Shown here: in pieces, positions 3,303-27,300 of the stretch | How positions within the stretch are numbered: position 1 is the first letter of the stretch | How the letters are laid out: each line of letters begins with the position of its first letter | IMG/VR virus record: IMGVR_UViG_3300021376_000051 | Coordinates: 1 to 64,000 of that record | Length of the DNA stretch: 64,000 nucleotides | DNA from: a virus | Strand: one strand, 5' to 3' | The notes under the pieces: model-generated | The model's input: only the letters and a program-made list of their open reading frames with translations | Database searches by the model: none | Told to the model about the DNA's origin: nothing | Position numbers and translations under genes: made by a program

Positions 3303-3606
3303 CTTTCAAATCCGTAATCTCAACGATCATTCTCTTTGGGATTTTATTTACCTGAGCTGTTTCATCAGGACCAATAGTATTTGTTACTGCAAAATGATCT
3401 TCATCTTCATGTAATACAAAACCAACAGTAACCATGATTGGTAGTGGAGACTTGCTAAATGATTGAGCCTTGCTCTTATCTAGCCACTCCTCACCACCTA
3501 TAGTTACAGCATCAATCCAGAAGATCATAACCAAATCTGGACTTTCTTGTGGATAAATTACATTCTTAGGCAAAGAAGTATTCAGATCCGAGTACTTCTG
3601 AAACAT
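3274..3606 (-). CDS. Conserved small phage protein downstream of RNAP
   Basis: A protein of about 110 residues in a frame overlapping the 3' end of the RNA polymerase gene. The core PDLVMIFWIDAV, PIMVTVGFVLHEDEDHF and IPKRMIVEITDL matches a layout I associate with small uncharacterised podovirus proteins. The start is unclear. The frame is open up to 3684 using a TTG, an ATG lies at 3606, and another at 3528 without a good ribosome site. The overlap with RNAP is therefore between 0 and 119 bases. Function unknown. Confidence 0.55.
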   Translation of the reverse strand: MFQKYSDLNTSLPKNVIYPQESPDLVMIFWIDAVTIGGEEWLDKSKAQSFSKSPLPIMVTVGFVLHEDEDHFAVTNTIGPDETAQVNKIPKRMIVEITDLKDGRTEEHKT

Positions 3607-6001
3607 CAAATTCTGCGTCTGGTTTTGGGCAGTCTGGAAGGAAGATTTGGTATCTTTCTTCTGTTTCTTTCTTGAGTTTTTCAAGTTGATTCTCCTTATG
3701 AATCTTTACAAACTCTTCTCTTAGAATCTTATGCATTACATCAATGTCTGTAGCATGTGTTCCATATGAATCATGGATCATAGAAAATGTATTAATACCT
3801 ACATTCATCATCCTACTGATAGACATAAACATATGTGCTGCATCTATCGCATGGATAAAGTTTGGAGAAACAGCGAGATACTGTGCTTTACCGTCGAGAT
3901 CTTCCGTAACAGTTGAGAATACCAACTGCTGCCTGTTAAATAGTTCGGCATAAGAAACTCTTTCTAGTACTTCGTTGTATACATGGTGTACTTCAAACCC
4001 ACTAGGAGTTGTCCATACCAATGGTTTGTTCATTCCATCTAGAACTTCAGCGACTGAACGCAACCATTCTTTACCCTTGTTTGGTGATTCCATAGTTTCA
4101 CCTAGACCAGCTTGGATAGCGCGGCTAAGTTCTACTACAGCACCTCCTCTGGATTCTTTTGGAACCCAATCCACATGACCTTCTTGCTTTACATATTTCT
4201 GCATTCCATAGAATGTAAGACCATATGCATCGCACATTGTAGGTCGTTTTGTTACAGCCCGTGGTAGTTTATTATTCCAGTTTAAAAGGAATACTTGATA
4301 CCAATTATTTTCAGGATGCTCTAGCATATACTGAGTACTAGAGTCTGCAACATACTGGTATAGATCTTCTGGTTTTTCACTGGGCAAGAGATTTGTAAGC
4401 TTTGCTAGCTTCTTGTTTCTCATAATAGCTGACCAATGTTGACCACCATTATTAGCACCATCCATTTGAATAGGAAGCTGAGTCATGCCATCCTTCCGGG
4501 CAATTTCAAAGATTGCTGCAAGGCGTTGGAATGACTTGTTCTTTTTCTTTAGTGGATCAATCCATTCTTTATTTGAGTATGGATCTTCTGCAATACGCAG
4601 TAGCATATCAATGTTTTCGTCTACCCACTTAACCCTATCTTCAAATGGCTTTTTGTCTTGGTCAAATAGATTTGCTAGGTGAACCTTAAGCCAGAACAAA
4701 CCACGTTCAGTTTGTTTCTTTGGCATTGCAAACTGTACAAGACCACGATCAAAATCTACTCCTTGTGGAGATAGTAACTCACACACAGAGTATGCACGAC
4801 CCCTGAAGTCCAGGGTATATGGCATATAGAAGAAGTCCCAGTCTAGCATTTTCTTTGCTAGCTGTAGCCGTACAATCATTCGACTGCGGGCTTGTTCTTC
4901 TTTGTACCATTCTCCCCAAGCTTCATTGGATTCTTGCATCCATTTGGCTTGCTCTTCTTTTGCACCATCTGTAGGATATGGCCTAGTAAAAGCATAATCC
5001 TTGAATGTAAATGCTGGTAGATTTGCAAGCTTATGATCGTTTTCAAACATAGTCTTCATAACAGAATAGACTTGTTTGTTTACTGACCATTCAGTTTCAC
5101 TAAGGGCATTAAGCCCACGGAGAACAAGTTCACTTGGTTTTGAGTCCCAATCCTTGGGATCTGCACCTACTGGATGATATCTTTTAATCATCTTCTTCCG
5201 AACCCAAGGTGACAAGAAGCCACCATCTTCTTCGGTAGTGTGCTTTACAGGAGGACAGATCATTGGTCTGTAAACTAGGCAGGCAGTCTCAAGCATTTCG
5301 TGACGCTTGCTTAGTTCTTTTAGAATCCAAGGGGCAAAACAAACCAACAATGATTTCTTGTTCTTACCATTCCAGTGTACCCGTGAGACAAGGATATCAC
5401 TAGAAAGTGCAATGCGAAGCATGTTATGACCAAAGTCTTCCTTCTCTTTTGAGTTTAACTTAGGAAGCTTACCAACTTTAGTTGTAAATGCCTTGCACCG
5501 CTTTACAGTCCAGTTTTTAATAAACTTAGACTGCCTACGCCAATCTTCTGAGAACTTCTTTTTTGCTTGTTGATAAGCAATAATTGAAATAACATCATCA
5601 GAGATTAACTTTGATACTTGTTGGGCAACCGGAGCATTGCTTGGAATACCCATAGTATCGTCAAAGTTTTGAATTGTATTCCTGGTTAGGAATAAACGCA
5701 TAACATTTCTGATTGTAATGTCTGCCATCTTAGCAGCACCAACACATAGAAGAGGTGCTAGCCAATCAGGCGACTTACGGTTATTACAACATTCATCAAT
5801 CCACTTCTGATAATAAGGAGTAAGATGTATGACTGCACTTTCAAGCAGAAGTTGCTCAGGCTTTCCTTCATCAACCGCACGATTGTACTCCTTCCAGTAT
5901 TTTTCAATACCATTATCTAGTAGATCTTCTTCAAATAGCTTTTGATTTATAAGTCTATTGTCTCTTTGTTCTTTAGATAGTTGTAACCAAGCTGTGCTCA
6001 C
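3566..6001 (-). CDS. T7-type single-subunit DNA-directed RNA polymerase
   Basis: An 811-residue phage RNA polymerase that would transcribe middle and late genes from phage promoters. Its landmarks are in T7 order: TxxGR-type LDFRGRAYS (about residue 400), motif A MDGANNGGQHWSA (about 515), motif B TKRPTMCDAYG (about 590), the PNFIHAIDAAHM helix, and motif C MIHDSYGTH (about 742). The C-terminus ends YFFA, like the T7 FAFA foot. T7 RNAP is 883 residues, so this is slightly short, mainly N-terminal. The start is GTG at 6001, which overlaps the preceding stop (GTGA) with AAGGAG 10 bases upstream. It stands at the border between early and replication genes as in T7. Confidence 0.97.
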   Translation of the reverse strand: MSTAWLQLSKEQRDNRLINQKLFEEDLLDNGIEKYWKEYNRAVDEGKPEQLLLESAVIHLTPYYQKWIDECCNNRKSPDWLAPLLCVGAAKMADITIRNVMRLFLTRNTIQNFDDTMGIPSNAPVAQQVSKLISDDVISIIAYQQAKKKFSEDWRRQSKFIKNWTVKRCKAFTTKVGKLPKLNSKEKEDFGHNMLRIALSSDILVSRVHWNGKNKKSLLVCFAPWILKELSKRHEMLETACLVYRPMICPPVKHTTEEDGGFLSPWVRKKMIKRYHPVGADPKDWDSKPSELVLRGLNALSETEWSVNKQVYSVMKTMFENDHKLANLPAFTFKDYAFTRPYPTDGAKEEQAKWMQESNEAWGEWYKEEQARSRMIVRLQLAKKMLDWDFFYMPYTLDFRGRAYSVCELLSPQGVDFDRGLVQFAMPKKQTERGLFWLKVHLANLFDQDKKPFEDRVKWVDENIDMLLRIAEDPYSNKEWIDPLKKKNKSFQRLAAIFEIARKDGMTQLPIQMDGANNGGQHWSAIMRNKKLAKLTNLLPSEKPEDLYQYVADSSTQYMLEHPENNWYQVFLLNWNNKLPRAVTKRPTMCDAYGLTFYGMQKYVKQEGHVDWVPKESRGGAVVELSRAIQAGLGETMESPNKGKEWLRSVAEVLDGMNKPLVWTTPSGFEVHHVYNEVLERVSYAELFNRQQLVFSTVTEDLDGKAQYLAVSPNFIHAIDAAHMFMSISRMMNVGINTFSMIHDSYGTHATDIDVMHKILREEFVKIHKENQLEKLKKETEERYQIFLPDCPKPDAEFDVSEVLGSEYFFA

Positions 6002-10347: not shown

Positions 10348-10593
10348 TTAGAATGGTAGACTGGTTGCCAAAGGCTCAGGAGCCGGCGGCGGTTCGGACT
10401 TTGGCGAGGGTCGGCTAAGCTTACCCTTGAAGGCAGGAGCCTTCGGGTGAGCAGCCCCCGAGTTATCCCACATACTGATGGGATACTTAACGCCATTGAT
10501 CGTAACATAACCATTGAGTGCAGGGCTAGCCGGGTTTTCCGAATTAACCTTCCACACATCTATCCGAATATTAGGTGCGTTTGTTTCTTGCAT
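10348..10593 (-). CDS. Small hypothetical protein, proline-rich C-terminus
   Basis: An 81-residue protein. The first 50 residues look folded (IRIDVWKVN, LNGYVTINGVKYPISMWDNS). The rest is a basic, proline-rich tail (PKSEPPPAPEP). The nucleotide sequence of the tail is noticeably GC-rich. No Shine-Dalgarno is visible before the ATG, and a promoter-like element (10601-10622) ends only 8 bases upstream, so the message may have a very short leader. A strong terminator follows, making it a one-gene unit. No family recognised. Confidence 0.7.
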   Translation of the reverse strand: MQETNAPNIRIDVWKVNSENPASPALNGYVTINGVKYPISMWDNSGAAHPKAPAFKGKLSRPSPKSEPPPAPEPLATSLPF

Positions 10594-10600
10594 TTGTAAA

Positions 10601-10622
10601 ACTATTGTAAATATTATCTAGG
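10601..10622 (-). promoter_or_regulatory. Second copy of the candidate promoter element
   Basis: The minus strand reads CCTAGATAATATTTACAATAG here, matching the element at 10245-10271 except for a one-base gap and a few substitutions. It lies immediately before the 81-residue gene. Confidence 0.35.
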
Positions 10623-10680
10623 ACGTTTCCTAGGATTGATAAACCTAGACAAATTATCAACCCCGATACAAGGTAAAACA

Positions 10681-10749
10681 TTATTCCTCTGATTCGTAGG
10701 AAGACATTAGATCTTCCCATTCAGCTACTAGCTTCCAGTCTTCTTCCAT
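10681..10749 (-). CDS. Possible 22-residue acidic peptide
   Basis: GGGAG stands a few bases before an ATG at 10749, which opens MEEDWKLVAEWEDLMSSY and stops after 22 codons. This is the only plausible translated stretch between 10594 and 11812. It follows a series of three hairpins (10815-10895) that could form its leader. It is too short to judge by composition. Confidence 0.3.
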   Translation of the reverse strand: MEEDWKLVAEWEDLMSSYESEE

Positions 10750-10898
10750 GAAACTCCCTGGTTAGGATTACGTTAACTTCTTAAAAGACATTCCACACAT
10801 CTCTGCGAAGAATGCCATATTGAGGATTCCTAGTTCGACCTCAATCTTTATCAGGGGATGCCTGATAACTTTTGGCTAACTAATATGCCAAGGCTAAG

Positions 10899-10933
10899 GA
10901 AAAGACAACCTAAGGGTTAGCCTAGGTTGTCCC
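10899..10933 (-). terminator. Terminator-like hairpin at the 3' end of the structured RNA
   Basis: On the minus strand GACAACCTA pairs with TAGGTTGTC and is followed by TTTTCC. It closes the dense structured stretch that begins just below 11750. It is weaker than the other terminators here. Confidence 0.55.
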
Positions 10934-11745
10934 ATGTAGGTCTTTACATTATCTCTTACCAGAGTAGATATAGACCTTAGACTATCTACTCTTGGTTATC
11001 CAATAACCGATGAAACGGTACATATTAGGGGTGTTTCATGTCCCTAACTGACTTCCGGCTTGAATTGAGTCCCCCATGTAGATCCGTCAACCTACACGGG
11101 ACGCACTATGCTTATGCTTCTATTTAACCTCGCATAGTCGAGGTATCCCTAATGCCGTGTTACCACCCTAGGATAAACGGGTGACACTTGCCTGCCTAAA
11201 GGCCGGTATAATAACCACAATGGTAGGCTTACCCATTGCTACACCCTTGCGGGGCGTTTATTACCTAGGTTTGCGGCCTAGGTAATATCCTATTAGGTTC
11301 TTCCCGTTGCAACGGTTCACCTCCTTAAGTTTGAAAGATATCCCACAGGTTTCCCCGTGGGATACCAGCTAGACTTGTTTCTAGCACGGGTGGAATGTAC
11401 CACCTATTTGGCGTGGCCTGGCAGGATTCCAGCGGGTACCTGCATCATCCGATTTACGTGACCTAGCTTGGCCCTACGGGTCCTTTGATCAGATCGGTGC
11501 TTTGAATCGTTAAGCTACAGGCCACAAGTGGGGATTTTAACCGTGTTTTAAGCCACAGTCAACCACTAGTTTGTTGTCCACAATTTATTAATCCCCTATG
11601 GACGTTTGCTTGGGATACCCTAGTTGGCTTAATCCAACTACCCGGGCAGGGTTGGCACCTAGAATGCCATTAGAAGCCACGGAACTGGTGACCCCTACCA
11701 TGTGGGGGTTGAGACAGTGCATGACCTCTAATGGAAGCCTAGGGG
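10899..11745 (-). ncRNA. Candidate large structured non-coding RNA (about 850 nt)
   Basis: No credible reading frame covers this stretch, but the minus strand folds almost continuously. Clear stems (both arms within the range given) are 11667-11734 (CCATTAGA/TCTAATGG long-range, with inner hairpins), 11621-11640, 11389-11404, 11368-11385, 11339-11364 (11 bp with a GAAA tetraloop on the minus strand only), 11259-11287 (11 bp), 11218-11238, 11127-11144, an H-type pseudoknot at 11010-11047, and 10959-10995 (12 bp). It is bounded by terminators at 11752-11794 and 10899-10933. The GNRA loop orientation and its neighbours favour the minus strand. Size, ornateness and phage location recall GOLLD or ROOL RNAs, but I cannot match it to either. 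A pseudo-tRNA-like fold lies at 11415-11523. Confidence 0.7.
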
Positions 11746-11751
11746 CTTGGG

Positions 11752-11794
11752 ATAAAAGCAGGGGCACCCAAGCAAGATTGCCTGGATGCCCCTG
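11752..11794 (-). terminator. Rho-independent terminator after the island's last gene
   Basis: On the minus strand CAGGGGCATCC pairs with GGGTGCCCCTG (one G-U pair), followed by CTTTTATCC. It starts 19 bases after the stop of the 67-residue gene and directly precedes the structured RNA. Confidence 0.88.
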
Positions 11795-11812
11795 TTTCGT
11801 CTGTTTCCAGCA

Positions 11813-12016
11813 TTAAAGCTGGGTTTCAATCAGTCCACGGGCTTCAGCCTCGGCCAAGATCCCCTGAATCTTCGATTCGGAGGTGACCTTACCGCGCTGG
11901 ACCTGGATGACCAGATTCAGCAGCTCCTTGTCGCCCAGCCGGGTGTAATCCACGGTGAGCTGCGGACGGGGGAGGGCCACAAGGGCCTTCGACGTAAAGG
12001 TGATGTTGATGGGCAT
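11813..12016 (-). CDS. Small hypothetical protein of the GC-rich island
   Basis: A 67-residue protein: a beta-like N-terminus (MPINITFTSKALVALPRPQ) and a helical C-terminal half (DKELLNLVIQVQRGK, IQGILAEAEARGL). I use the ATG at 12016 because AAAGGATTGGTG stands just before it; the frame is open to 12073 but without a site. It is the last gene of the GC-rich island and is followed by a terminator. No family recognised. Confidence 0.6.
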   Translation of the reverse strand: MPINITFTSKALVALPRPQLTVDYTRLGDKELLNLVIQVQRGKVTSESKIQGILAEAEARGLIETQL

Positions 12017-12277
12017 CACCAATCCTTTCTGGGAACCACTGATGATAGTGAACATTCCCTTTGGGTCCAACATCAGCAGCCACTCGCGCGAGTGATCTTA
12101 CTGATGTAAAATCGCAAGAGTGGCGCGGAGCGAAGCGGAGTCGCCACAACGGGAGGGCAACCAAAGGCAAGCCCTGCGCTGAACGGAGCGTGTGGCTCCG
12201 TGAAGTCCGCTCTAGGGGCACTTATCCCTAGGGGATAATATTATTAGTTAATTGAACCTATGAGTCAGGTTATTGGC
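12017..12277 (-). other. Intergenic leader in the GC-rich island
   Basis: This 261-base gap between the compact RNA polymerase and the 67-residue gene holds no convincing gene. Visible structure on the minus strand includes an AT-rich patch (CTAATAATATTATCC, about 12227-12241) that could be a promoter, CCCCTAGGG-type inverted repeats just downstream of it, a GGAGC/GCTCC hairpin and the palindrome CACTCGCGCGAGTG near 12090. The role is unknown. Confidence 0.4.
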
Positions 12278-14167
12278 TTAGCCCATGAAGTTGCGGGAAG
12301 CCGTGAAACGATGCTCGTTGATGGGCTTCCATCCCTCCTTCCAGATCTTGTGGTTGAGGTGGACCTGGTACTGAGCCAGGTTGTTTGCAAGGCGGGGTTC
12401 GGTCATGTACATCTTCTTGTACAGAACCTTCCACGCCATCTTGACGAAGCGCACACCCGCACAGCAAGTGCCGTGCGAGTCATGGATGGGCGAGTAGGGC
12501 AACCCCTTGATTGCCATGAGCCGAGCGATGCCCGACACATGGGCAGCATCTTCCGAATGGATCACCAACGGCGGGGCTGCCGATGCCTGCTTGATCAACT
12601 TACGCTTCATCAGCGTAACCTTGATCTTGCGGTCCCCAACCGTGAACTCCACACGGTTAGGCTTCTCGTCCTTGTCCCAGTCATGCTGGAACACGAACGA
12701 CTTGGCCCCGTCATGGTGATGCCAAGTGAAGATCTGTCCTTTATCGTGTGCCTTGCTGTAGGCATCACGGACAAGGCGGATGAACTCCCGAAGCTTCGGG
12801 AACATCCGCAACAAGGACTCATGGTACGCCTTGGAAACTTCCAAGGCATCGTCCCATGCGGTATCCAGACGATCCACCCAAACATCAACCCAGTCTGGGT
12901 TGAATGCCTCTGGGTCCTTGGTCAACAATGCCTTGGCCTTCTTCGGGCAATAGTTATTGCCCTCTGAGATGCGGTCCCAGTCATCCCCGTCCTTGAGGAT
13001 GAGGCCCTTGGCCAAGCCGCCCGGTCCTGCGCCATAACCAAGGCGCATGACAAAGTACTTGGCCTCTTCAGGGTGGAAGAACTCCAACAAGGTTCCGCCA
13101 TAGCCAGCCTGTGCTGACTTGGCAACCTCCTTGTACAATGACTTCTTCCTCTTGGTGCCACCAAGGTTGGTGTACCAAGCGAGAGTTGAGTCACCGCACA
13201 ACCCGGCAATCCTCTGGTATCCGTCTGAAGTACAGTCCTGCTGGAAGATGTAAGAGGTTGCCCCCGTGTCTTCCAGCTCGGCCATTGCCACGGCCAACTC
13301 AAACCGGGAAATGATTTTGGTTACCTTGCAGCCGAACCAGTCGGCTGCACTCTTGAGATGGGCAATAGCCCCATCTCGCGGGTGGAAAGGCTGTTCCTGG
13401 GTAGGAACAAACCCTTCCTTCTCTGCCTCCGCATGGGTCATCGCCATGCGGACGCGGAAGATCAGTTCACGGTAGTTACGGGGAGTAACCCCATCCTCCT
13501 TGGCAACCGCCCAGCAAGCTGCCAAGTTTGCCGCCTTGTCTTTACCAAGGCTGTAAGCCTTGGCGTAGCCCATCAGGCTACGGACGAGCACACCGCCCAT
13601 GTGGGCAAGCGTGTCGGGGAAGTAGAACCTCCTCCGCTTGAAGCAGTAGAACCTAAACACATCGGTTCCCTGCTTTTCGGCCTGTGCCACGGCCTTGAGA
13701 GCCGTGGCAAACTTGAGGCCCCCGCCCTCGGCACCGGGCATCTTCTGCCCAATGCTGTACAGGCGAGAGCTACCGAACGCCTTCAGGAATCGGAGAGCTT
13801 CCGGCCTGAAGGCGTACTGAACTCCCTGAAGGAAGTTCAGGGTGTCCGCATCTGCTGCGGACAACCCGGGCATCTCCTCCCAAACAGGAGGTTCAGCCCG
13901 GACAAGGAGCGCAGTCTTGGGCACAACCCAGATGCGCTCCGACCGATGGCCGTCATCCGTGATCACTTGCTCACGGCTGATGGCGTACTCAGGCCGCAGC
14001 AGCAGCTGCTCCACGGCCTTCTTGGCGGCAGCACCCAGCTCTGCCTCGTCGCCAAGGAACGTGCATGCGTCCTTGGCGACGGCCCAGCACCGCTGGATGG
14101 TGAGCGGGTATGTTACCCGCTGAACCAGCGCGCTGAGCATTGCACTGACAATCTTCTTATTGGTCAT
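12278..14167 (-). CDS. Compact divergent single-subunit RNA polymerase
   Basis: A 629-residue protein of the T7-like RNA polymerase superfamily, much shorter than T7 RNAP (883) and very different from the 811-residue enzyme at 3566-6001. The active-site set is present: motif A QQDCTSDGYQRIAG (D near residue 310), motif B KYFVMRLGYGAG (K near 374, Y eight residues on, as K631/Y639 in T7), the VIHSEDAAHVSGIA helix and motif C SPIHDSHGT (near 563), with about 65 residues after it as in T7. The TxxGR position is altered to FKRRRFY. About 230 residues are missing before motif A, where T7 keeps promoter-recognition domains. The coding sequence is near 60% GC. The start ATG follows GAGGTAACC and a duplicated structured leader. 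It may be an early, second or accessory polymerase. Confidence 0.88.
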   Translation of the reverse strand: MTNKKIVSAMLSALVQRVTYPLTIQRCWAVAKDACTFLGDEAELGAAAKKAVEQLLLRPEYAISREQVITDDGHRSERIWVVPKTALLVRAEPPVWEEMPGLSAADADTLNFLQGVQYAFRPEALRFLKAFGSSRLYSIGQKMPGAEGGGLKFATALKAVAQAEKQGTDVFRFYCFKRRRFYFPDTLAHMGGVLVRSLMGYAKAYSLGKDKAANLAACWAVAKEDGVTPRNYRELIFRVRMAMTHAEAEKEGFVPTQEQPFHPRDGAIAHLKSAADWFGCKVTKIISRFELAVAMAELEDTGATSYIFQQDCTSDGYQRIAGLCGDSTLAWYTNLGGTKRKKSLYKEVAKSAQAGYGGTLLEFFHPEEAKYFVMRLGYGAGPGGLAKGLILKDGDDWDRISEGNNYCPKKAKALLTKDPEAFNPDWVDVWVDRLDTAWDDALEVSKAYHESLLRMFPKLREFIRLVRDAYSKAHDKGQIFTWHHHDGAKSFVFQHDWDKDEKPNRVEFTVGDRKIKVTLMKRKLIKQASAAPPLVIHSEDAAHVSGIARLMAIKGLPYSPIHDSHGTCCAGVRFVKMAWKVLYKKMYMTEPRLANNLAQYQVHLNHKIWKEGWKPINEHRFTASRNFMG

Positions 14168-14189: not shown

Positions 14190-14271
14190 GGTCATTTAAA
14201 CTGTTGACCACTTGCAGTTACCCCAAAGGGGAAGCCCAAGGTAAGACACTTAAGCCTTACCTTGGGGTAGT
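14190..14271 (-). repeat. Duplicated three-hairpin leader, copy 1 (before the compact RNAP)
   Basis: Its 37-base core (14235-14271) is identical to 14693-14729, and the rest of the 80 bases is similar. On the minus strand it folds into CCCAAGGTAAG/CTTACCTTGGG (11 bp), CCCC/GGGG and GTGGTC/GACCAC hairpins, ending about 20 bases before the RNAP ATG. It could be an RNase III processing site, a promoter region or a regulatory leader. Confidence 0.8.
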
Positions 14272-14649: not shown

Positions 14650-14729
14650 GCCATTTGAACTGTGGCCCTTACAGTTACCCTAAACAGGGAATCCCAAGGT
14701 AAGACACTTAAGCCTTACCTTGGGGTAGT
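14650..14729 (-). repeat. Duplicated three-hairpin leader, copy 2 (before the membrane protein)
   Basis: Same layout as 14190-14271. Differences between the copies preserve pairing: the third stem is GGCC/GGCC here against GGTC/GACC there, and the middle stem is CCCT/AGGG against CCCC/GGGG. Compensatory changes like these suggest the RNA fold is selected. Confidence 0.8.
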
Positions 14730-15301: not shown

Positions 15302-18300
15302 TTACAGTAAAGCTTCTGGTGCCTGTATTGGCTGGTTAGCCTTTTGTAAATCTACGGATGTGGAAGTTTGTTGTGGTTGTGGTTGCTGTGGTTGTGGCTG
15401 TGGCAACTGTGGTTGCTGTGGTTGTGGCAATTGTGGTTGCTTAGGTTGTGGCAATTGTGGTTGCTGTAGTCTTTCCGAACTACGCTTCAAGTATTCTTCT
15501 AGATGTCTTTTTGGGATATTGTTATATTGTGTTTCTTTTTGCAATACTGTTGGATACTCTGGGAACATTTCTCTAATTAGTGCATTTGTTGTATCTTCTA
15601 CTGGTGTAGACATAGAATCTATAATTGCTGATATGTCTCCCTTGGCTCCTCTATACGAGCCTCCTGAGGTTGGCGAGCTAGTTCCCCATGCTTGTGCTAC
15701 GGCTACTCTAATTGGTAGTGAGTAACCGTTGGCAATTAGCCAAGGCCCCAATGCTTTATAAGCAGCCCAGGTTTTGGCATCCCAAGTTTCTTGTGGTGAT
15801 GCAAATGCTTCAACCATTTTGTATATATCTCTAAATTGTTGCATTAATCCAGCTTCAGCAACAGAGCTAAGCATACCACCCTGTGATCTACCAGTTGCTG
15901 CTGCTAAACTAGCATTAGCAATTAACCCTAGTATGTTATTACTAAATGCTGGATTACGCATGATGTATCTACCAATTTCGCTGATATTATCTTTTCTATT
16001 AAGTTTTTCTAGAATATCTTCATAACTTAATGTGCCTCTAGCTAAAGCAAGGACAAGATTATAAGTAAAGTCTAGTAAACTTGAAGTTGCAAGCATCATA
16101 CCCATTTTTGGAAAACTAGCTGTACTACCCCTTCTAATTATTTGCTGAGCAACAAACAAAGAAGTATATGATTTATAGAATGTTAGCAGATCGGTAGCTA
16201 GGTTATCACTTCGTGGGGCATCTAGTGCTTTACGGACAACCATACCTCTTGTTGTGTTAAATTCTTGGAATTTAGCCATAGCTGTTTTAGCTAGACTTAG
16301 TTCAGCTAGTAATTCATTCCTAGTTAAGAATGGTCTTGGTACTGGTCCGGTTGATCTTGGTGAGGTTGAGTCTTTTAGTTCTAGTTCGACATCCATCATA
16401 TCTTGGAATAGAATAACACCTCTAAATGTATTCTTTTCTGTTCTAATATATCGCAATGCCTCTAGTCTCTTGCCCTCTAGTAAACCAGATTGAATTATAT
16501 ATACAGCAACTTCTTGGTCAATGAAACCTAACTTGTTTTGCCGTAGTAATTCCTTAATTTGGCCAACTGTGGTTGGTTTAATTGCAGCAGCCCTATAGGC
16601 ATCTCGGAATCTATTGAGATGTCCCATTCTTTCTAGTTTAACTATTAATCTATTACCAGCAGCATCCATAGCAACTCTTACAGATTTCATTGCACTGGAG
16701 TTGGAGCGGGATCTATTTAGTTTCCATCTATCCCAGAATCCTAATTTTTCAATTAGATCTGAAGATGGATCCATAGATAAGAGATTGCTTGGTAACATTG
16801 GTGAAGTAGTTTCTTCAACAAATGATAAAGTATTTTGAGCAAGTCTTCTAATCTTTCTTTGTCTGATTGGGAAGAATTGTCTTTTTGTTCTTCCACTTGC
16901 GTCTGTTACTTTTCCTGGGAAACCAGAAGTATCTACTATAGCATTTGCCGCATTAACTATACCATCTTCTACCATATCTCTTAGGAATCTAAAGGAAGAT
17001 ATAACACCAACAAACGGGTTGCTTTCTTGGAACATTTGCGACATTGTACTCATTACACCCTCTACCATATAAGTAGCTGTGTTGATATTCATACCGAATC
17101 GCATCAATACTAATGTTTTAGCTCGGTTGTTCCAATCTGCTAGGCTTTGGCCCATGTCTGTGGTATCTCGTACTAGATTACCCTTTGTTTCTAGTAGCGC
17201 AAGTCTAAGTCTATTGATACCTTGACGCATTAAAGCGTTGTTATCAATCTTTAGGTTTCTTTCTCCACGTTGATCAAATAGGGTAATGTTTCTGCTATTG
17301 GAATTAACTGTTTGATCATTCTCAGCTTCAAACATATCTAAGATCTGAGATATATTGAAGTATGCATTTGGAATACCTGATAGCTGCTGAACCATTTTAC
17401 GTTCAATAGCATCATATGCAATCTTACCAGTACCCTTAGCCAATGTTGATAGATTTGTTTCAAACAACTTAAGCATGTTTGGGTTAGTTGATAAGAATAC
17501 ATCTCTGCTGGTTAGGAATACAGAATCCTGTTTAAATAGCGCAGAAGACTTTGTAACTCTATTTAGAAACTCAATGGTTAGTACATCAGATGGACCCAAG
17601 ATACCAGTCATTTCTCCAGTTAAACCATGTGGCATGTTTCTATCAGAAATACTAAAGTGTTTTCTTACGTCATCTCTTTGGAACTTAGTATTCCATCTTT
17701 CGGCTGTTTTTTCATCTGTAGGAATTAAGAATGCTTTCTTAAAAGCTAGTACAACCATATCCATATTTTGGGTTGTCATCCCACCAAATGTTTTTTCTAA
17801 AGTAACATCACCATCTCTAGTTTGCCATAGTATTTTATGAATTATTTCCTGCACATCTTTATGGATTCTAACTAAAGATTGTGTAGAAGCATAATCGGCT
17901 ACTGTTGTAATACCTGTTCTACCGATTGATTTTTTTGCAGCTGTTCTTACAGCCCAATTTATAATTGCTTCTCTACCACCATTAGCAATAGTATCCTTAC
18001 CGGAAATAATATCAGCCACAACCTTGCTTAAAGATGCTTCATCTGCTACTAGCATTTCTTCTGGATTTAGTGGAATTATTCCAGAAGTATATCCTAGTAA
18101 TGGAGAGAATGTTGCATACTTTCCATTAGCATCTAACATTGCTATATTCTTACTAACTAGTTCCTTTTTAATTATATCAAACGCATCTCTAGCTAGGTTA
18201 CGATCCTGTAATAATGAAGTATCTCTTAGTCTAACTGGGAACACATCATTTTTACTGGTTTTTTCTAGCATGCCTACTTGGGTTTGTAGCTCTACGGTTT

Positions 18301-21300
18301 TATCTGTTAATAGTCTAAAAGCACCAGTAAGACTTTCAACATGCTTCTGTTCTTTTACTCCGGTTAGGATTGGTCTAATACCTAATAAATTCCTTACTAC
18401 ATCCTGAATAATAGCGTGTTGCATATTAAGGTTATTGGGATATTCTGAACTTAGGTCTGCCGACTTAATCATTACATTATAAACATAAGGATCAATCAGT
18501 AGTTTATCGTTTTGAATACCACTAACATCAGACTGTAAAGAACCTTTTGTTGTTACAGAAGCCTGGTCAATTAGTTCTGTTAGAATAGCTAATGGTGCAA
18601 ATGGGCTATTATAGGTTAATGAAGTTGCATTCATAAACCCTTGTAATAGGTTGTTTTGCAGTATGGTTGAGATCATTAACTCGGAACCAACAAAGGGTAT
18701 ACTTCTAATAATACCAGCAGCTGTTCCTTCATCTGCTCTTTCTCCTCGTCTATCAATACCACGTTGAATAAGTCCAACTAAGAATGCTCTTCTAAATCCA
18801 TTATCAAGAAGATCTCGTTCTGTTAGTCTTGAACCCTTTGTTGTTGAGAAATCATCTAAATCAGCTAAAGTTCTTGCAACAAACCCAACACTAATATTCA
18901 TAAATGTATTAATGTCTTTTTCTCTAATCTTTTGTTTAAGATCATTTATCTTTGAGTCTATAGCTGCAAGTGTTGCCATATTTGGAATTGGCTTGCTACT
19001 TTCTATCTTATAGTTTTGTTCTTCTACTCTTAGCTCTGAAATCAAGATATTAAGATCAGCCATTTCTGTTGGTGTTAATTGTCTATTGTTTTCCGTAGCA
19101 ACGACACGTTTAAATGCATTGAGTTGAGCATCAGGATTTCCAACATCAGCTCTAGTAGACATCCCTGTTCCAATAACAGCCATTACAACATCTTCAGCTT
19201 CTTTCATAAAGCTAGAGTATTCTGGGTTATCATTTAGTTTATTAAATGTAATAAGGACTCGTTGAGCCATTTTCTTAATAGCATAGAAAGCATTTTCCCA
19301 AAGTCTATAAGCCCTACCAACTGGTGCATACTTGTCTCTTAGTTTTGTAATAGCTTCCTTCGATCCTAGTACATTTCTTAGTAAGAAGAATGCACCCATA
19401 TGGGCAAAGAACTCATCAGTATTGCTAAGTGCATACTCTACTTCTTGTTCTAAGTTTTCGTATGGTTTGCCATTATTCATGGCTAATAGCATTTCTCTAA
19501 TTACTGGTTTTGATCTTGTTGTATCAAATAGTCCAGTAACTTTACGCCACTCGGGTGAGTTTGTTTTTACATACTTTAGTCTAGCAATGTGAACTAATTC
19601 TTCTGCAAATCTAAATAGGATTTCATTTTCTGCTGTAACCTTCATTGCTGTTATGTTTTGACCTATTACATATCTACCATTTCTCTTAGCAGCAAACATA
19701 ATACCGTCTTTACCTTCTCCAGCAAATGATTCTATTGTTAGTTCTTCTACAATATCTGGGTTATGCTTTGCCAGGTTACCAATAAGCATAAGCTTCATAT
19801 CCCGTGCTCTTGCTGATATTACACCACCAGAAACAAGACCATCAAGATAGTTTACAAACTTTTCTGCTGATTCTCGGTGTGCTGGGTTGCTAAATGACAT
19901 TATAAAGTCATCTGGATCAGTATATACAGCCGGAGAAGATGCATCAGAGTAGATCTCGTCAGCAATTTCTGGTTCTAGTTGTGGTCTGGTAAAGTCTTCA
20001 ACAGCCGCTCTGATATTAGACACAACTGCTGGTGTTAGTTCTTTACCGCTTGCTGTGGCCATAGCTCTAACAAACACAGCATCGCTTGTTAGGTTTCTTG
20101 GTTCAGCAACAACTCGTTCCATTGCTGCTCTAGTTACATAGTATTCTTTTGCATTATCATGTGGTTCGTTATCCATGACGTACATTAATGCAGATACAAC
20201 ATCATCAATTTGTTGCTTTTGGCTGGTCTTTAAACCTTCTGCATTAAAGTATCTATATACAGATCGCTCTGCTGCATCGTTTCCTGCTACTTTATACATC
20301 ATAGCAGCAATCTTAATTAAAGCATTTGGAGACTTTACAGACTTTGGTAACTGTGTTTTGTTGTTATTTGCCCATACAATAAAATCACCTATTTGAGATG
20401 CTTTATCTTCAAATCCAAGTTGTTGAGCTTTTACAAGAACTTCAGTTAATACAGTTAAGAATGGAGCATCTGCAACAGAGATGTTAATCTTTTGCTGTTT
20501 AACTGTTTTAAAGGCTCTACCCGCTACTATAGTTGTATCACTATTTGGTATTGTTATTGTAATTGTAGCTGGATTATCTCCAGAAGACCGCAAGTAATAC
20601 CCCAAATCAAGAACATCTTTGGACTTTCCATCAATGTTTACCCTTCTGTAATCTTTAAGCATAGCTGGTTTTACAGTACCTGGGTCTGTTTCATACAAGA
20701 ATGCAATACTTTCAGATAATTCATCTTCCATATCACGCATTCTTTCAAACATTTGGGCTTCTTTTTCTTGAATTACTGAGTCAATCTCAGTTTTAAACCC
20801 ATAGATTTCTTTGTTTGTTTGAATAGCAAGTTCAATTTCTGAGAATAACTTATAGTTTTCTAGGTTGTTTAGCATCTGAATCAAACCCTGTGGGGTATTA
20901 AGCCATAGTGTTGATGGGTTATCAACCTGTGATGTTATCTGGGCATACGGATCTGTTGGACCCTGTACGGTAAGCTTTTCTAGTTGCTCGTCTTCTCTAA
21001 ATACTTTATTGTTTTTATCTCTTAGTGTTACTCTATTTTCTGAGTTGACAGCAAAGTAGAAATTCTTTAGCAATTCTTCTGCAATACTTTGCTTTTCAAG
21101 TAATGTAGCATTCCAGATTTTCTTATATAAAGCCGAGTCTGTTCTTGGATCAAGACTTTCAAGAATAACAAACCCGTTAGAATCATATTTTACATTTGGA
21201 TCTGTTTCATATGGCGTTCCGACAATCATCTTAGTTGCTACTTGCTTAGCAGTTTCGGATGCACCTATTACTTGGTATAGTTGCATTACTTCTCTACCAA

Positions 21301-24300
21301 AGGCAACTACAGGAATCTGGGTTGTAGATGGGATTCCGGCTCTACCCTGTCTTCCACGGACAATTACTCCAGGATCTAGGGTAATTCCAAACTCCATGCT
21401 CATTAATCTTTCGATCTTACCCCTAGTACCTAGATATGTTAGTACTTGTAACCAACCAGGTTCTTCACCGAATGTTGCTTTGATATCGTTAATGGTGTCT
21501 AAACTTAGTGTTCTTTCCTCTAATGTTGCCATTAGATCGAGTGGAGAGAATCGCTTTAATCCACTAAGAGTAGCAGAGCTAATTCCAGCTGTTCTTAAGA
21601 ACCCATCAATATATCTAATTCTAGCTTCTCTAACTAGTTCGTCTTTTTCTAGAACTTCATCAATTGATGTTTTAGACTGAGATGCCTTTTGTAGTGTGTC
21701 AATAGCTGGGTTTAGTGCTTTATTTCTTAGTTGCATAACTGCAAAGATTCTACCCCAATCCTTTGCTTCTAATGACTCATCTAAACCATGTAACTTAGCA
21801 AATTCTGTTAAGACATTCTGTAGTCTAATAGCATTTTGCTCTACTCTTTCTTTTTGGCCAAGAGCAATAGCTCCAATTACATCATCAGAACTTTGTGGAA
21901 TCATTGGCATATTTTGAGGTTCATAAGGTGACTTATATCCTCTCAATGACTCTGGAACAAATCCGTTTGGATTAGAACTTAAGGCACCCTCAACCTCTGC
22001 TAGTTGTTGCAAAGCTTGGTTTTGTTTAATTCTGGCTGCGTGTTGTGCTGCTGCTAGTGCATAAATACCACGTTGTGTAAAGTCAATATCTGCATATGCT
22101 GGTCTTAAAGCACCGTATCCATCGACAGTAGGATCTAGAATAATCTCTTCTCTGCTACTTACTGCATCAGAAGCAAGAGTTCTAAATCTAAGTCTAGCAT
22201 ATGCTGTTCCTGCTGCTTTTTTATTTCTATCATTTCTTTCTTTCGCGGTTATTTCAATTCCACCAACAGTATACTTACGAATCTTTGGTGCTTTTTCAAG
22301 GTACTTTGATACTTCTGCTGCTTCTATTTCTTTTGCGGATCTTGCTTGTAGATCTAAGAAATACTTTGTTCTATTTTCATTTATTTCTGGTTTATATCCA
22401 GTAACAATAGTTGGTCTATAGAACTTGGCTAGGTTTAATAGTATTTGTCTAGCAAAGATCTGTTCAAAGTCTGCTCTTGCTGCTTGTTTTTCTTCAATCT
22501 TCCACATACCATAAGGATTGTAATCTCCACCTGGCTCCATAACCCTTGGTTGGGCATACTTTGAGCTTTCTGGACCAAGGCCATACCAACTAACCATGTG
22601 GTTTCTACCGCTTGCGGTTTCTACTCCATATCTAAAGTACACTTCTCTATTCAAGTATCTAGTATAGTCTTCTTTATCAATGTGTACACCCATTACAAAT
22701 CTATGAATGTCTGCTACATCTTCATCTAATACAAATGGAGTAGTAGCTCGTCTATTTAAAGCATAAATCATTAGATGATTTTGTGCTGCTTCTTCGCCGC
22801 CAGCAAGTGCTACATTCATTTCATAGATAAACGTGGCATATTCTTCTGGACTCATGCTATCAACTGCTTTGCCTTCCCAAATAGCAGCAGCTTTATCAAG
22901 TCTTGCTTTCCACTTTGTTAGCAATTCTGACTCAATTTCTTGTTCAATTTCTTCAAGTTTTCTATTACTTGGATTTACAATTCCACGAACTCTTGCTACA
23001 GACTTAGCCGTTTCTTTTGCAGAAACAGAAATAAACTCTTGCATACTACCCAATCGTTCCATTCTTGATCGCGCTTCACCAAGAGCTTTGGAGCCATTCA
23101 AAGTACTGCTATAGGTGCTTGAGTTTAGTCTTTGTGCGTTGCTTAGTAATATATTTCGTAAGTCTTGGATATTTTCTCTACTAAACCCAATAACTTCATC
23201 AATTAATCTAGAACTTCCAATTAACTGCGATCTTACAGACATACGAGCTAGGAATTCAATTTCATCTTCAGTTAGGTCAAGATTTGTTTCTTTTACCTTT
23301 GTCTGTAAACCCTGTAGAATACCGGGATAGCCTGCTTGATAGAATGCCGGTGTTACAGCACCCTTTAGGAATTCTTTTAGTTGCGCTCTATTCTTTTCAT
23401 CGCTTGGATCGCCCATCTTAGCTCTTAATGCTTTAGCTAACTCAGCATCCGCTGGTGTAATATTAAATTTAGATGGATTAGTAGCCATCTCATTTAGCAT
23501 ATTTGTACCAAAGTATGGGCTATTTTTATCACTGGTTCCAAGTAAGATGTCTATAAACATAAATCTTGGGTCACCTAAATCTTTACCAGCAACAACAACC
23601 TTTTTACCAGCAAATGTAGCTGGAGCACCTGTTTCATCTGTTGCTTTTAGAACCTGTAACAGATCATCCATAACTTTAAAATTGCCGTCATTAAAGGCAA
23701 TCAACATTGCTAGGATGTTATGCTTACCGTTATACTTGTAGTCTGATTTATTTGATGTATTCCAGGCAGCATCCCCATTGGTTCTAAGGATTTCCATACC
23801 ACGATCAAGTACATTTTCAAGCTCCTTAACACCATCTGGTGTCATTAAGCCATAACTAATCATATGTGCTAACTGGTCTACAGCACCACCCATAAGTGCA
23901 GCAGCGGTTGGTCCACCAGCACTTATAAAGTCTTGCATATAAAATACTGGTTGGGTATCTTTAAAGAATCTTGGTGGAGCTTTCATTCCCATGTAAGTAC
24001 AGTCATGGTTAAATGACATAAGTAATCTGGGAATCTCATATAAATGTTCTTCTACTAGCAACCTTCTTTCTGCTAGGTTTGGAATAGCAGCAAATGGACT
24101 ACGAACAGTAACATCAGGACTTATGTCTAGAACCTGTTGTCTAGCAAAGAAACTAATTGGATCTCCTGGTTTTTGAGTTAGTGGAGTCTCTAGCCAAGAG
24201 TATACTGAACTTAGGACAGCAGGATCACTAAGGTCCATATCAAGAATAGCATTTACTCTTTGCTGGAGTCTCCATCCCTCATAGGCTAACTCTTCATTAT

Positions 24301-27300
24301 CAAGAGAGTGTGGCTGTGCCATGTTGACTTTATCTTTACTTGGCATACCAAATATCTTTCTTCTACCCTTGCCACCCCTAGCTAGTAGTGTTCTGTCATC
24401 CATTTGCATAACAGACTCAACTTCATTTCCGCGCTGTAGCAGTACGTCTGTTACTGAAATGTCTGGTTTTTGATCCATCATTACTTGTGCAAAAGCAATA
24501 CCAACCTCGTCTGCTGGCTTCCAGTCTAAAGACCCATTACCAAAGTCTTGTAATGCACTTAGACCTGGGACAAATGGTTTAAAGTAATCAAGAATTACTC
24601 TTTCCCAGTATTGAGACTCTGATTCTGTTTCTTTTCTTGGCTCTGCTTTAACTCTATCAAGCATTGCTTTATTAAATCTATTCTTAACTTCTGACTTAGA
24701 AATAAACTTAATAAATGAATCAAGTACAGCGTTTTCATATCTTTCTGCACTTCTAACAGAGTTGCTGAACAGGCCATCTTGTTTAAACTTTCCGACCGGC
24801 ATAGAGCCATCTAGATTGTCATTTATACTAACAACAGCTTCATTTCTATCGTTAATGTTGTAATTTAGTGATAAAACAAATCCATACTTGGTAAATAACT
24901 CATCTAGTAGTGGGTTTATTGCTCTTTGGTTTTCTAAGGCAATGCGTCTAAGAGATCTATCAAAGTTTGTTTCTTCTGCGGCTCTTCCCTCAAGACCATT
25001 AATAACCGCATTAATCTTAGCTTCGTTAGTTGTTGGATCACCCATTAAACTTTTGAGATACCAGTTAATTAGTATATCATAAACAGCATTAGCATCATAA
25101 CCATAAGAACTTACCATATAGGTTTGTTCTACAATATCAGTTACTTTTGGTGTTATTTTAGTTATATCGCTTAGTGTATCAAGTGGAATTAACCCAGTAA
25201 ACTCAATGCTGTTATTTAGCAGTAAATTACTCTTTGGTGGGGTAATTGAAATTGTAGTTACTTCATCTGAGTCAGAACCCTGTAGTGCTAGACTGCTTAT
25301 ACCAGGATCAGACATATGTAAGAATAAAGCTAGTGTTGTTTCTGTATCGTTTTCTGCATAAGCATCAAACTCAAAGAAGTCTCCAGTTTCTTGTCCTCTT
25401 CTCCAAAGTTCTGTAATACCGCCTTCACCAAGTTTGATTTCTTCACCCGTTACAAGATTAACAGGATAGCCTGTAGTAAATTGAATCCTTGGTTTACCTG
25501 TTGTTGGGTCTGGGTAACTAAGTACTGGTGTTCTTGTTGGTAGATTATTTTTTGCAAGTTCTTTAAGTTTTTTACCCTTAACTCTAGACTTTTCAAACAT
25601 ATTAATGCCTGGAGCTTGGCTTGTAATATTAGCAAGCAAGTCAAAGCTTCTTAAAGATACTCTAGCAAGTAAATCTGAGTCACTAGTAAAGAATCGTAGT
25701 TGTGGTAAATCAAAGCCATTACCGTTGTGTGTAATTAGCTTATATCCCATATTCTGTAGTTCTTCGATTCTCTTTAATACGCTAGTAACTTGATCATTAG
25801 TTAGTACTTGTCTTTCTTTTGCTTCTGTTGTTTTAACATCTACAAGATCAGTGCCATTATTTACTAAGACTTCATTTGATCTAGTAAGTGCAGCTGGGTT
25901 AGATGAATCATATGTAGCAATCTGAATGCTATAGATACCATCTACTTTTCTATCCGGGTCATTAACATCACCAAAGGTTTCAATATCAATTGTAATTAAC
26001 TTTGAGTTATCTTTATCAAACCCATCTGCAAAGTCTGGCATTGTTTCAGGATCGCCACCATGAAGCTTTATTAAATTCCTAGACATACTTAATTTATCAT
26101 CAATACCAACTTGAGATATTACTCTTCTTTGCATTGTTTTTAAGTATGCTTTTTGAAATGCTTCTGGATGGATATCCATAAGACGGTCACCTAAAACCTG
26201 TCTCAATAGCTTTTCATTTATTGTTCCGTTAAAGTACTTAAAGCCGAATACACTTCGGAGTCTTCTAACCGATCCCTCAATGACTCTAGCAGCCTCTCTG
26301 TGAGACTTTACTCGGTTCTTTGCGGGAATAGTACCTCTATTATTATCTGGGTGTACAGCAACCTGGTCGGCTGTTAAAGACGGGGCAAATGTTGGATCGA
26401 TTGCTTCTGGACTAGAAGCATCAACTACTCCACGGCCTACAGCAAATGACTTTAGGGTATTTAACGCTTCTTCTGTTAGTAAGGCTGGGTCTTCTGTAAA
26501 GAATGATCCATCATAACTAGATAGTAACTGGTTTCTCCAGATTTGACTTGCTTCTTTAACTTCTGCTTCATTCATTGGAGACAAGTCTTCAGTTTTACCG
26601 TCTTCTAGTTTTTCTCTCTTACCAATTACGGTTTTAACCGCAAACTCACCAAACATTTCTTCAACCTGAGAAACAACAACAGCTCCGCTTCTTTCTATTT
26701 CATTATTTAGATAAGACAATCTAAGATTCATACCCTCAGTAGCAATTGTCATTAACTTTCTTTGGTTAATAATCATTTGCTGGGATGTCATAGATACATC
26801 TCTAACATCCCTAACTAAAGATGTTAACCCAAGTTCCATCATTCTAGCTTGAACTTTATTAAGTTCTTTTTCAAGGTTAAATTTAAACTTGGTTAGGCTT
26901 TCTGCTCTCTTGGTCATATCAATACCAGTAATATCTTTTAGACTGGCAATTGATAAACTGGTTAATGCTTTTTTAAGTTCGCTGTTTAGTTTTCCGAGTT
27001 GTTTTACAGCTTCTTTTCTATCCTTCTTTGCTTTATCTTTTTCATCCTTAAAGGACTTTTTCTTTGCTTTGTCTTTAGTTAAGATAATCTTAGATTCTAG
27101 TGCAGCAATCTTACCTTCTAACAATCTGATATCTAATTCTTTTGCTTTTATTTCTTGTTGCTTTGCTTCAACCTTAGAATCTGCATCTATTACTGTAGAT
27201 GTTTTACCAGACTCTTCAATTAGTTGTGCAATGTAAATAAAGTTTTCAAGGATAAATTCCTTTTCTAGTAAACCTTGACTTTGGTTTAAAAGGCTTTCTA

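Follow-up and report, generated by a model that had tools for sequence, protein, structure and literature searches.

The noncoding stretch at positions 10899-11745 belongs to a window of 64,000 nucleotides (nt), out of the 65,204 bases of IMG/VR virus record IMGVR_UViG_3300021376_000051, which comes from an uncultured, podovirus-like phage. On its minus strand, a pistol self-cleaving ribozyme (11143-11066) is followed at once by a conserved tandem-pseudoknot domain of about 165 nt (11060-10899), and this pair is best explained as a gene for a phage small RNA that owes its 5' end to the ribozyme, a reading that we regard as probable. An earlier note on this DNA, made from the letters alone, had described the whole stretch as continuous RNA-like structure of about 850 nt, possibly a giant RNA. 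Its coordinates are fair as given, while the conserved unit spans only 11143-10899.

The pistol ribozyme (RF02679) is the one significant Rfam match in the stretch, scoring 43.8 bits against a gathering cut-off of 34.5, and nothing else credible appeared up to E = 10. The element fits the family with its P1, P3, pseudoknot and conserved linker. Thirty-five relatives were gathered by protein search with the main RNA polymerase of the phage, and a pistol was found at the same locus in L003, L004, L006, L009, L010, L013, L018, L019, L020, L031, L037, G003 and G015, each genome having a single copy above the cut-off; the pistols of relatives score 38.9-65.2 bits. In 13 sequences compared, P1 and the loop pseudoknot are 100% paired, and two-sided changes affect 7 of their 11 pairs; the first P1 pair, for instance, is C-G in the window and L004 and A-U in the other 11. 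Cleavage is predicted between G11071 and A11070, a position taken from the Rfam alignment and from the description of the family (PMC4604425).

The domain 3' of the ribozyme was defined from an alignment of nine relatives. In this alignment, a stem encloses a hairpin whose UGAAAC loop pairs with a downstream GUUUCA (pseudoknot PK-A); further 3' come a second hairpin whose loop also pairs downstream (pseudoknot PK-B), an invariant UACAUGGG and a terminator-like hairpin. A covariance model built from it, R1, was run on phage loci of about 1.2 Mb and 0.57 Mb, and matches the window at 11060-10899 with 130.5 bits (E 4e-28). There, the closing stem P1 of the domain (11059-11056 with 11009-11006) is 100% paired, with 3 of 4 pairs changed on both sides, and surrounds hairpin P3 (11048-11042 with 11030-11024, loop ACAUGAAACAC), in which 5 of 7 pairs have changed on both sides. 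The P3 loop forms PK-A (11039-11033 with 11016-11010, AUGAAAC/GUUUCAU), made of six invariant pairs and a seventh that is U-A, A-U or G-C depending on the group. Two-sided changes affect each of the 10 pairs in the aligned helix of hairpin B (10992-10983 with 10970-10961). Its loop forms PK-B (10977-10972 with 10943-10938, AGGUCU/AGACCU), in which 86.7% of cells are paired, one pair has changed on both sides and another three have changed on a single side; relatives have AACCC/GGGUU at this place. The terminator-like hairpin (10931-10921 with 10914-10904, followed by UUUU and ending at 10900) stands after UACAUGGG and has 10 of 12 pairs changed on both sides.

Covariation in the domain is strong. 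Among 15 distinct sequences, 34 of the 50 pairs have changed on both sides, and there are 140 two-sided cells against 46.5 expected; none of 500 shuffles attains the observed level. The share of paired cells is 91.3%, a percentage that leans to the model because the R1 alignment was fitted to the model structure, which does not contain the pseudoknot pairs; sliding the structure by one base lowers pairing to 45% or less. The strand bias of folding and the many G-U cells, which on the opposite strand would read as A-C mismatches, show that it is the minus-strand RNA that is selected. The earlier note was right in that the RNA itself is conserved and looks functional, with strong support from covariation among relatives; where it proposed a pseudoknot there are three, namely that of the pistol, PK-A and PK-B.

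The R1 model recovered the nine relatives together with two more loci from their phage family, L106 and L240. It also matched L158, L093, L179, L212, L219, L224 and L227 of another phage group at 57-60 bits (E about 1e-11 to 1e-10), of which L158 has one protein in common with the window and L219 has none. Every R1 match at E<1e-4 with its 5' side present lies just 3' of a pistol, also in this unrelated group, and most start about 5-11 nt from it. Weak matches in L027 and L037 (19-20 bits) are not claimed. Three pistol-bearing relatives (L018, L019 and L020) have no full-length R1 match and show the same topology by hand, with 97.5% of cells paired and 6 two-sided changes against 2.0 expected. 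The same architecture is found in L144, L151, L154 and L192, whose main polymerase, where its sequence is present, is only 45-49% identical; here 97% of cells are paired and there are 5 two-sided changes against 1.3 expected, including both pseudoknots. The structures of these last two sets were derived by eye from members of the alignments, so that their paired percentages are biased and the two-sided changes are the independent part. The order of pistol, PK-A domain, PK-B hairpin and terminator hairpin is found in three sequence groups, each with its own covariation. An enumerator of the topology (stem, hairpin and loop pseudoknot), run after 101 non-redundant phage pistols, gave 8 loci at a score of at least 44, against 0.5 expected, and 11 at a score of at least 40, against 2.95 expected. 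Of this excess, L115, L200, L134 and others are kept as candidates only, and the pairing of L134 is not kept in L148 and L157.

Some relatives carry further RNA elements next to the pistol or the domain. A second conserved pseudoknot lies 3' of the domain in L010 (540-587), L018 (911-958), L027 (5289-5336) and others, with the pattern ACCGCAAGCAACCTAGCC(CA/TG/CG)TAGGCGGTATATAAATAG(TG/CA/CG)GGACA and covarying loop pairing. It has no Rfam match (L010 tested), was not found in the window, and is also present in L025 and L027, both of which are without a detected pistol. In L037 (6480-6680) and L191, a T-arm-like element (GCAGGTTCGAATCCTGC) stands 3' of the pistol and before a D-arm-like element (AGTGGTGTAATTGGCAGCAC), with GTATACTGT and ACAGTATAC complementary; these look like permuted tRNA halves, and acceptor pairing was not found. 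The IMG/VR loci L088-L206 contain at least 120 phage stretches with a canonical pistol core; in several of these, such as L140 and L181, two or three copies stand immediately 5' of open reading frames (ORFs). Pistols directly 5' of ORFs are a second use of the ribozyme. The distant relative L024 has two type II hammerhead ribozymes (2028-2093 and 2507-2575) around a small ORF (2117-2503); we rejected them as replacements of the pistol, since they are located upstream of the second RNA polymerase gene, at another locus.

The data establish the presence of the unit, its strand, its covariation, its fixed order and its synteny, while cleavage in the window, transcript ends and role are inferred. 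On this basis, minus-strand transcription, begun at an as yet unmapped promoter or continuing out of the late genes by readthrough, would cross the variable upstream modules, after which the pistol would fold, cut at G11071/A11070 and shed whatever sequence lies upstream. The 3' product is expected to fold into two successive pseudoknotted hairpins and to end at the terminator hairpin 10931-10900, giving a predicted mature RNA of about 170 nt (11070-10899), compact, with a 5'-OH end and a structure that would protect both ends. Because a constant architecture goes with an almost complete change of sequence, this RNA probably acts by shape, in binding a protein, the ribosome or a polymerase or in self-assembly, and not as an antisense RNA. 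Multimers are possible as well, because covariation in cis cannot separate intramolecular pairing from pairing between copies. A bolder version is that the domain represents an undescribed class of phage small RNA, defined by its architecture and built-in pistol 5' end, shape-acting, possibly multimeric by way of its loop pairings, and passed horizontally between unrelated phages; to this we give about an even chance.

Several points weigh against a ribozyme-released small RNA. Six of the seven PK-A pairs never vary, and the pistol P2 is short in this clade, with about 2-3 pairs by hand. The cleavage dinucleotide in the Rfam alignment is GA in the window and GU in the consensus; pistols are described as varying in their junction letters and as tolerating such differences (PMC4604425). 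The U tract after the terminator-like hairpin is short, so that readthrough into the early genes is possible. A promoter was looked for and none was identified: the search for a phage-polymerase promoter motif by repeats and k-mers gave nothing above the null, and a sigma-70-like site at 11562-11534 is kept in L003 and L004, such matches being not rare in the genome.

The larger RNA proposed by the earlier note, one continuous and ornate molecule of about 850 nt similar to GOLLD or ROOL, has in its favor the length, the phage setting and the continuous low-energy fold. The minus strand (847 nt) folds at -324.8 kcal/mol, compared with -259 +/- 7.7 for shuffles (z -8.5), and the plus strand reaches z -2.8. 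The hairpins listed in the note exist, as does its long-range stem (11734-11727 with 11674-11667, CCATTAGA/TCTAATGG), which is kept in L003 and absent from L004. Windows of equal length elsewhere in the genome give z of about +1 to -6 and the adjacent second RNA polymerase gene gives -9 to -12; in 150-nt windows too, this gene is more structured than the stretch. Folding energy alone is thus not decisive for a functional RNA. No match to GOLLD, ROOL, OLE or HEARO was found in Rfam, either at the gathering cut-off or up to E = 10. Membership in group I or II introns was also rejected, as no match reached the gathering cut-off and none was credible to E = 10, the sole intron-family row being a sub-threshold group-II fragment. 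Structure conserved over more than 500 nt, as in giant RNAs, was not found; about 245 nt at the 3' side are conserved across the clade, and the 5' part of about 500 nt is exchanged, deleted or absent in relatives. The upstream modules (11745-11144) are replaced or deleted in L003 and L004 and nearly absent in L031, which has about 49 nt from the upstream ORF to the pistol start. Comparison of the window, L003 and L004 reveals matching blocks with unrelated sequence between them: a 125-nt module (11529-11404) is replaced in the relatives and a 40-nt block is deleted in L003. The hairpin with a GAAA loop followed by UCUUU (11366-11336), which does exist as noted earlier, with a stem of 13 base pairs where 11 had been counted, marks a boundary between modules; together with two neighboring hairpins it reaches z -6.05, and it occurs twice in L003, where the second copy bounds an extra unit. 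Since blocks are swapped, deleted or absent in L003, L004 and L031, we consider the 5' half to be a zone of module turnover rather than a piece of a giant RNA. A single large molecule is largely refuted by this loss and is now very improbable, and the claim of a new class holds for the 165-nt domain 3' of the pistol and not for the 850-nt whole.

If the conserved part were instead a device for mRNA processing, the pistol would part late readthrough from the early mRNAs and the pseudoknots would be a protective 5' leader of the early operon. The locus does sit between the late-side RNA polymerase and ORF and the early-side genes, many phage pistols are found directly 5' of an ORF, a tandem-pseudoknot type of domain not being present at all phage pistols, and hammerheads flanking phage genes have been proposed to process long phage transcripts (PMC3088659). 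However, a covarying terminator-like hairpin closes the domain before the next gene in all three architecture groups, and more hairpins come before the first downstream ORF, so we find this role unlikely. Two pseudoknots directly upstream of a terminator hairpin also resemble an aptamer with its expression platform, in which case a cis-regulatory attenuator or riboswitch would control the terminator 10931-10900 and hence the early genes. This is more doubtful still, as the strand that forms PK-B lies clear of the terminator stem, a conserved antiterminator was not observed, and the free variation of loops and stems is not what a ligand pocket would show. In the window, the PK-B loop could also pair with the terminator arm; by eye, this alternative seems not to be kept in relatives, and it is not claimed as an antiterminator. 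A DNA-level element, such as a replication origin or a packaging or recombination site whose inverted repeats are merely RNA-like, would fit the largest intergenic gap and the module turnover between close relatives, and is hardly credible given the strand bias of folding, the G-U pairs, the covariation of the pseudoknots and a ribozyme at fixed distance.

Pistols, small RNAs and terminators are known kinds of elements. Known pistols have been described as ribozymes near phage genes (PMC4604425), whereas here, as in many other phages, the pistol comes together with a conserved RNA on its 3' side. The HDV-like theta ribozymes next to phage tRNAs (PMC10879173) are likewise phage self-cleaving ribozymes with a proposed role in forming one end of a noncoding RNA; they belong to another ribozyme class and are proposed to trim the 3' trailer of tRNAs, where the pistol would generate the 5' end of a new RNA. 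Phage self-cleavage for transcript processing has also been proposed for the hammerheads of PMC3088659, which flank variable protein genes, while the 3' neighbor of the window pistol is a structured RNA. GOLLD and ROOL (PMC12286853) are structured noncoding RNAs as well, some of them in phages, and differ in being much larger and in having their own conserved structure. In cultured phages, no DNA similarity was found for the region; a comparison of pistol and domain gave matches, to the pistol or to fragments, that were no longer than about 45 nt. No earlier description of the domain was found in Rfam 15, the 50,697 phage records or the literature searched, in which subscription papers and preprints are incompletely covered. 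The packaging RNA of phi29, of about 174 nt, conserves its shape under divergent sequence and has loop pairings between molecules. The domain is similar in size and in keeping shape over sequence; its loops have their partners in neighboring strands in cis, and there is no packaging gene in the vicinity. The combination and the RNA family appear to be new.

The gap that contains the stretch (10589-11822) is the largest between genes in the window and accounts for 1234 of 3738 intergenic nt; noncoding DNA runs on past 10899 to about 10749. Nothing protein-like is encoded, in agreement with the earlier note, and internal ORFs are short and not maintained in relatives. The gene order on the minus strand is a giant protein (15302-27820), small ORFs, a second T7-like RNA polymerase (12278-14167), an ORF of 86 amino acids (11813-12073), a terminator (11794-11759), the noncoding stretch, small early-side genes, and then DUF932, ThyX and the main T7-like RNA polymerase (3566-6001), whose best matches among the 50,697 phage records are <30% identical. 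The flanking terminators reported earlier are present on both sides: the upstream one is the intrinsic terminator of the operon of the second RNA polymerase and the 86-residue ORF, with a 16-base-pair stem and a T-rich tail, and the downstream one is the terminator-like hairpin at 10931-10904.

Other features were observed around the locus. The second RNA polymerase (629 amino acids) is divergent, its catalytic motifs seem intact by eye, and relatives carry a divergent counterpart at the same place; its gene has a G+C content of 0.54-0.61, where the rest of the genome is mostly <0.43, and its coding strand folds with z down to -12. Beyond it, a 43-nt terminator-like hairpin occurs in two copies of 98% identity (14229-14271 and 14687-14729) around a small ORF. 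Between the domain and the first ORF (10898-10749, minus strand) there are more hairpins, including GGCATTC/GAATGTC and then TTTT at about 10818-10785, possibly another small RNA unit. Two diverged copies of a small early gene, homologous to window 10348-10593, occur in one genome across contig ends (G003; L038 2513-2770 and L005 183-500). In the upstream half, 11529-11404 has a cloverleaf-like layout similar to that of tRNA-Ile(GAU), its anticodon and T loops carrying inserts, and is perhaps a decayed tRNA. Its reading as a split tRNA-Ile is good by eye and was rejected, being unsupported by folding (z only -1.04), by relatives (absent in L003 and L004) or by ARAGORN, which found no tRNA or tmRNA there at default score, with introns allowed or in tmRNA mode.

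Strong covariation and the lack of an Rfam entry make the domain RNA a candidate for a new family. Phages often carry self-cleaving ribozymes, whose jobs are mostly unknown; a ribozyme that stands just 5' of an independently conserved RNA, at one fixed locus, makes this question assayable. If the domain is indeed an undescribed small-RNA class, it would provide a defined biological job for pistol ribozymes.
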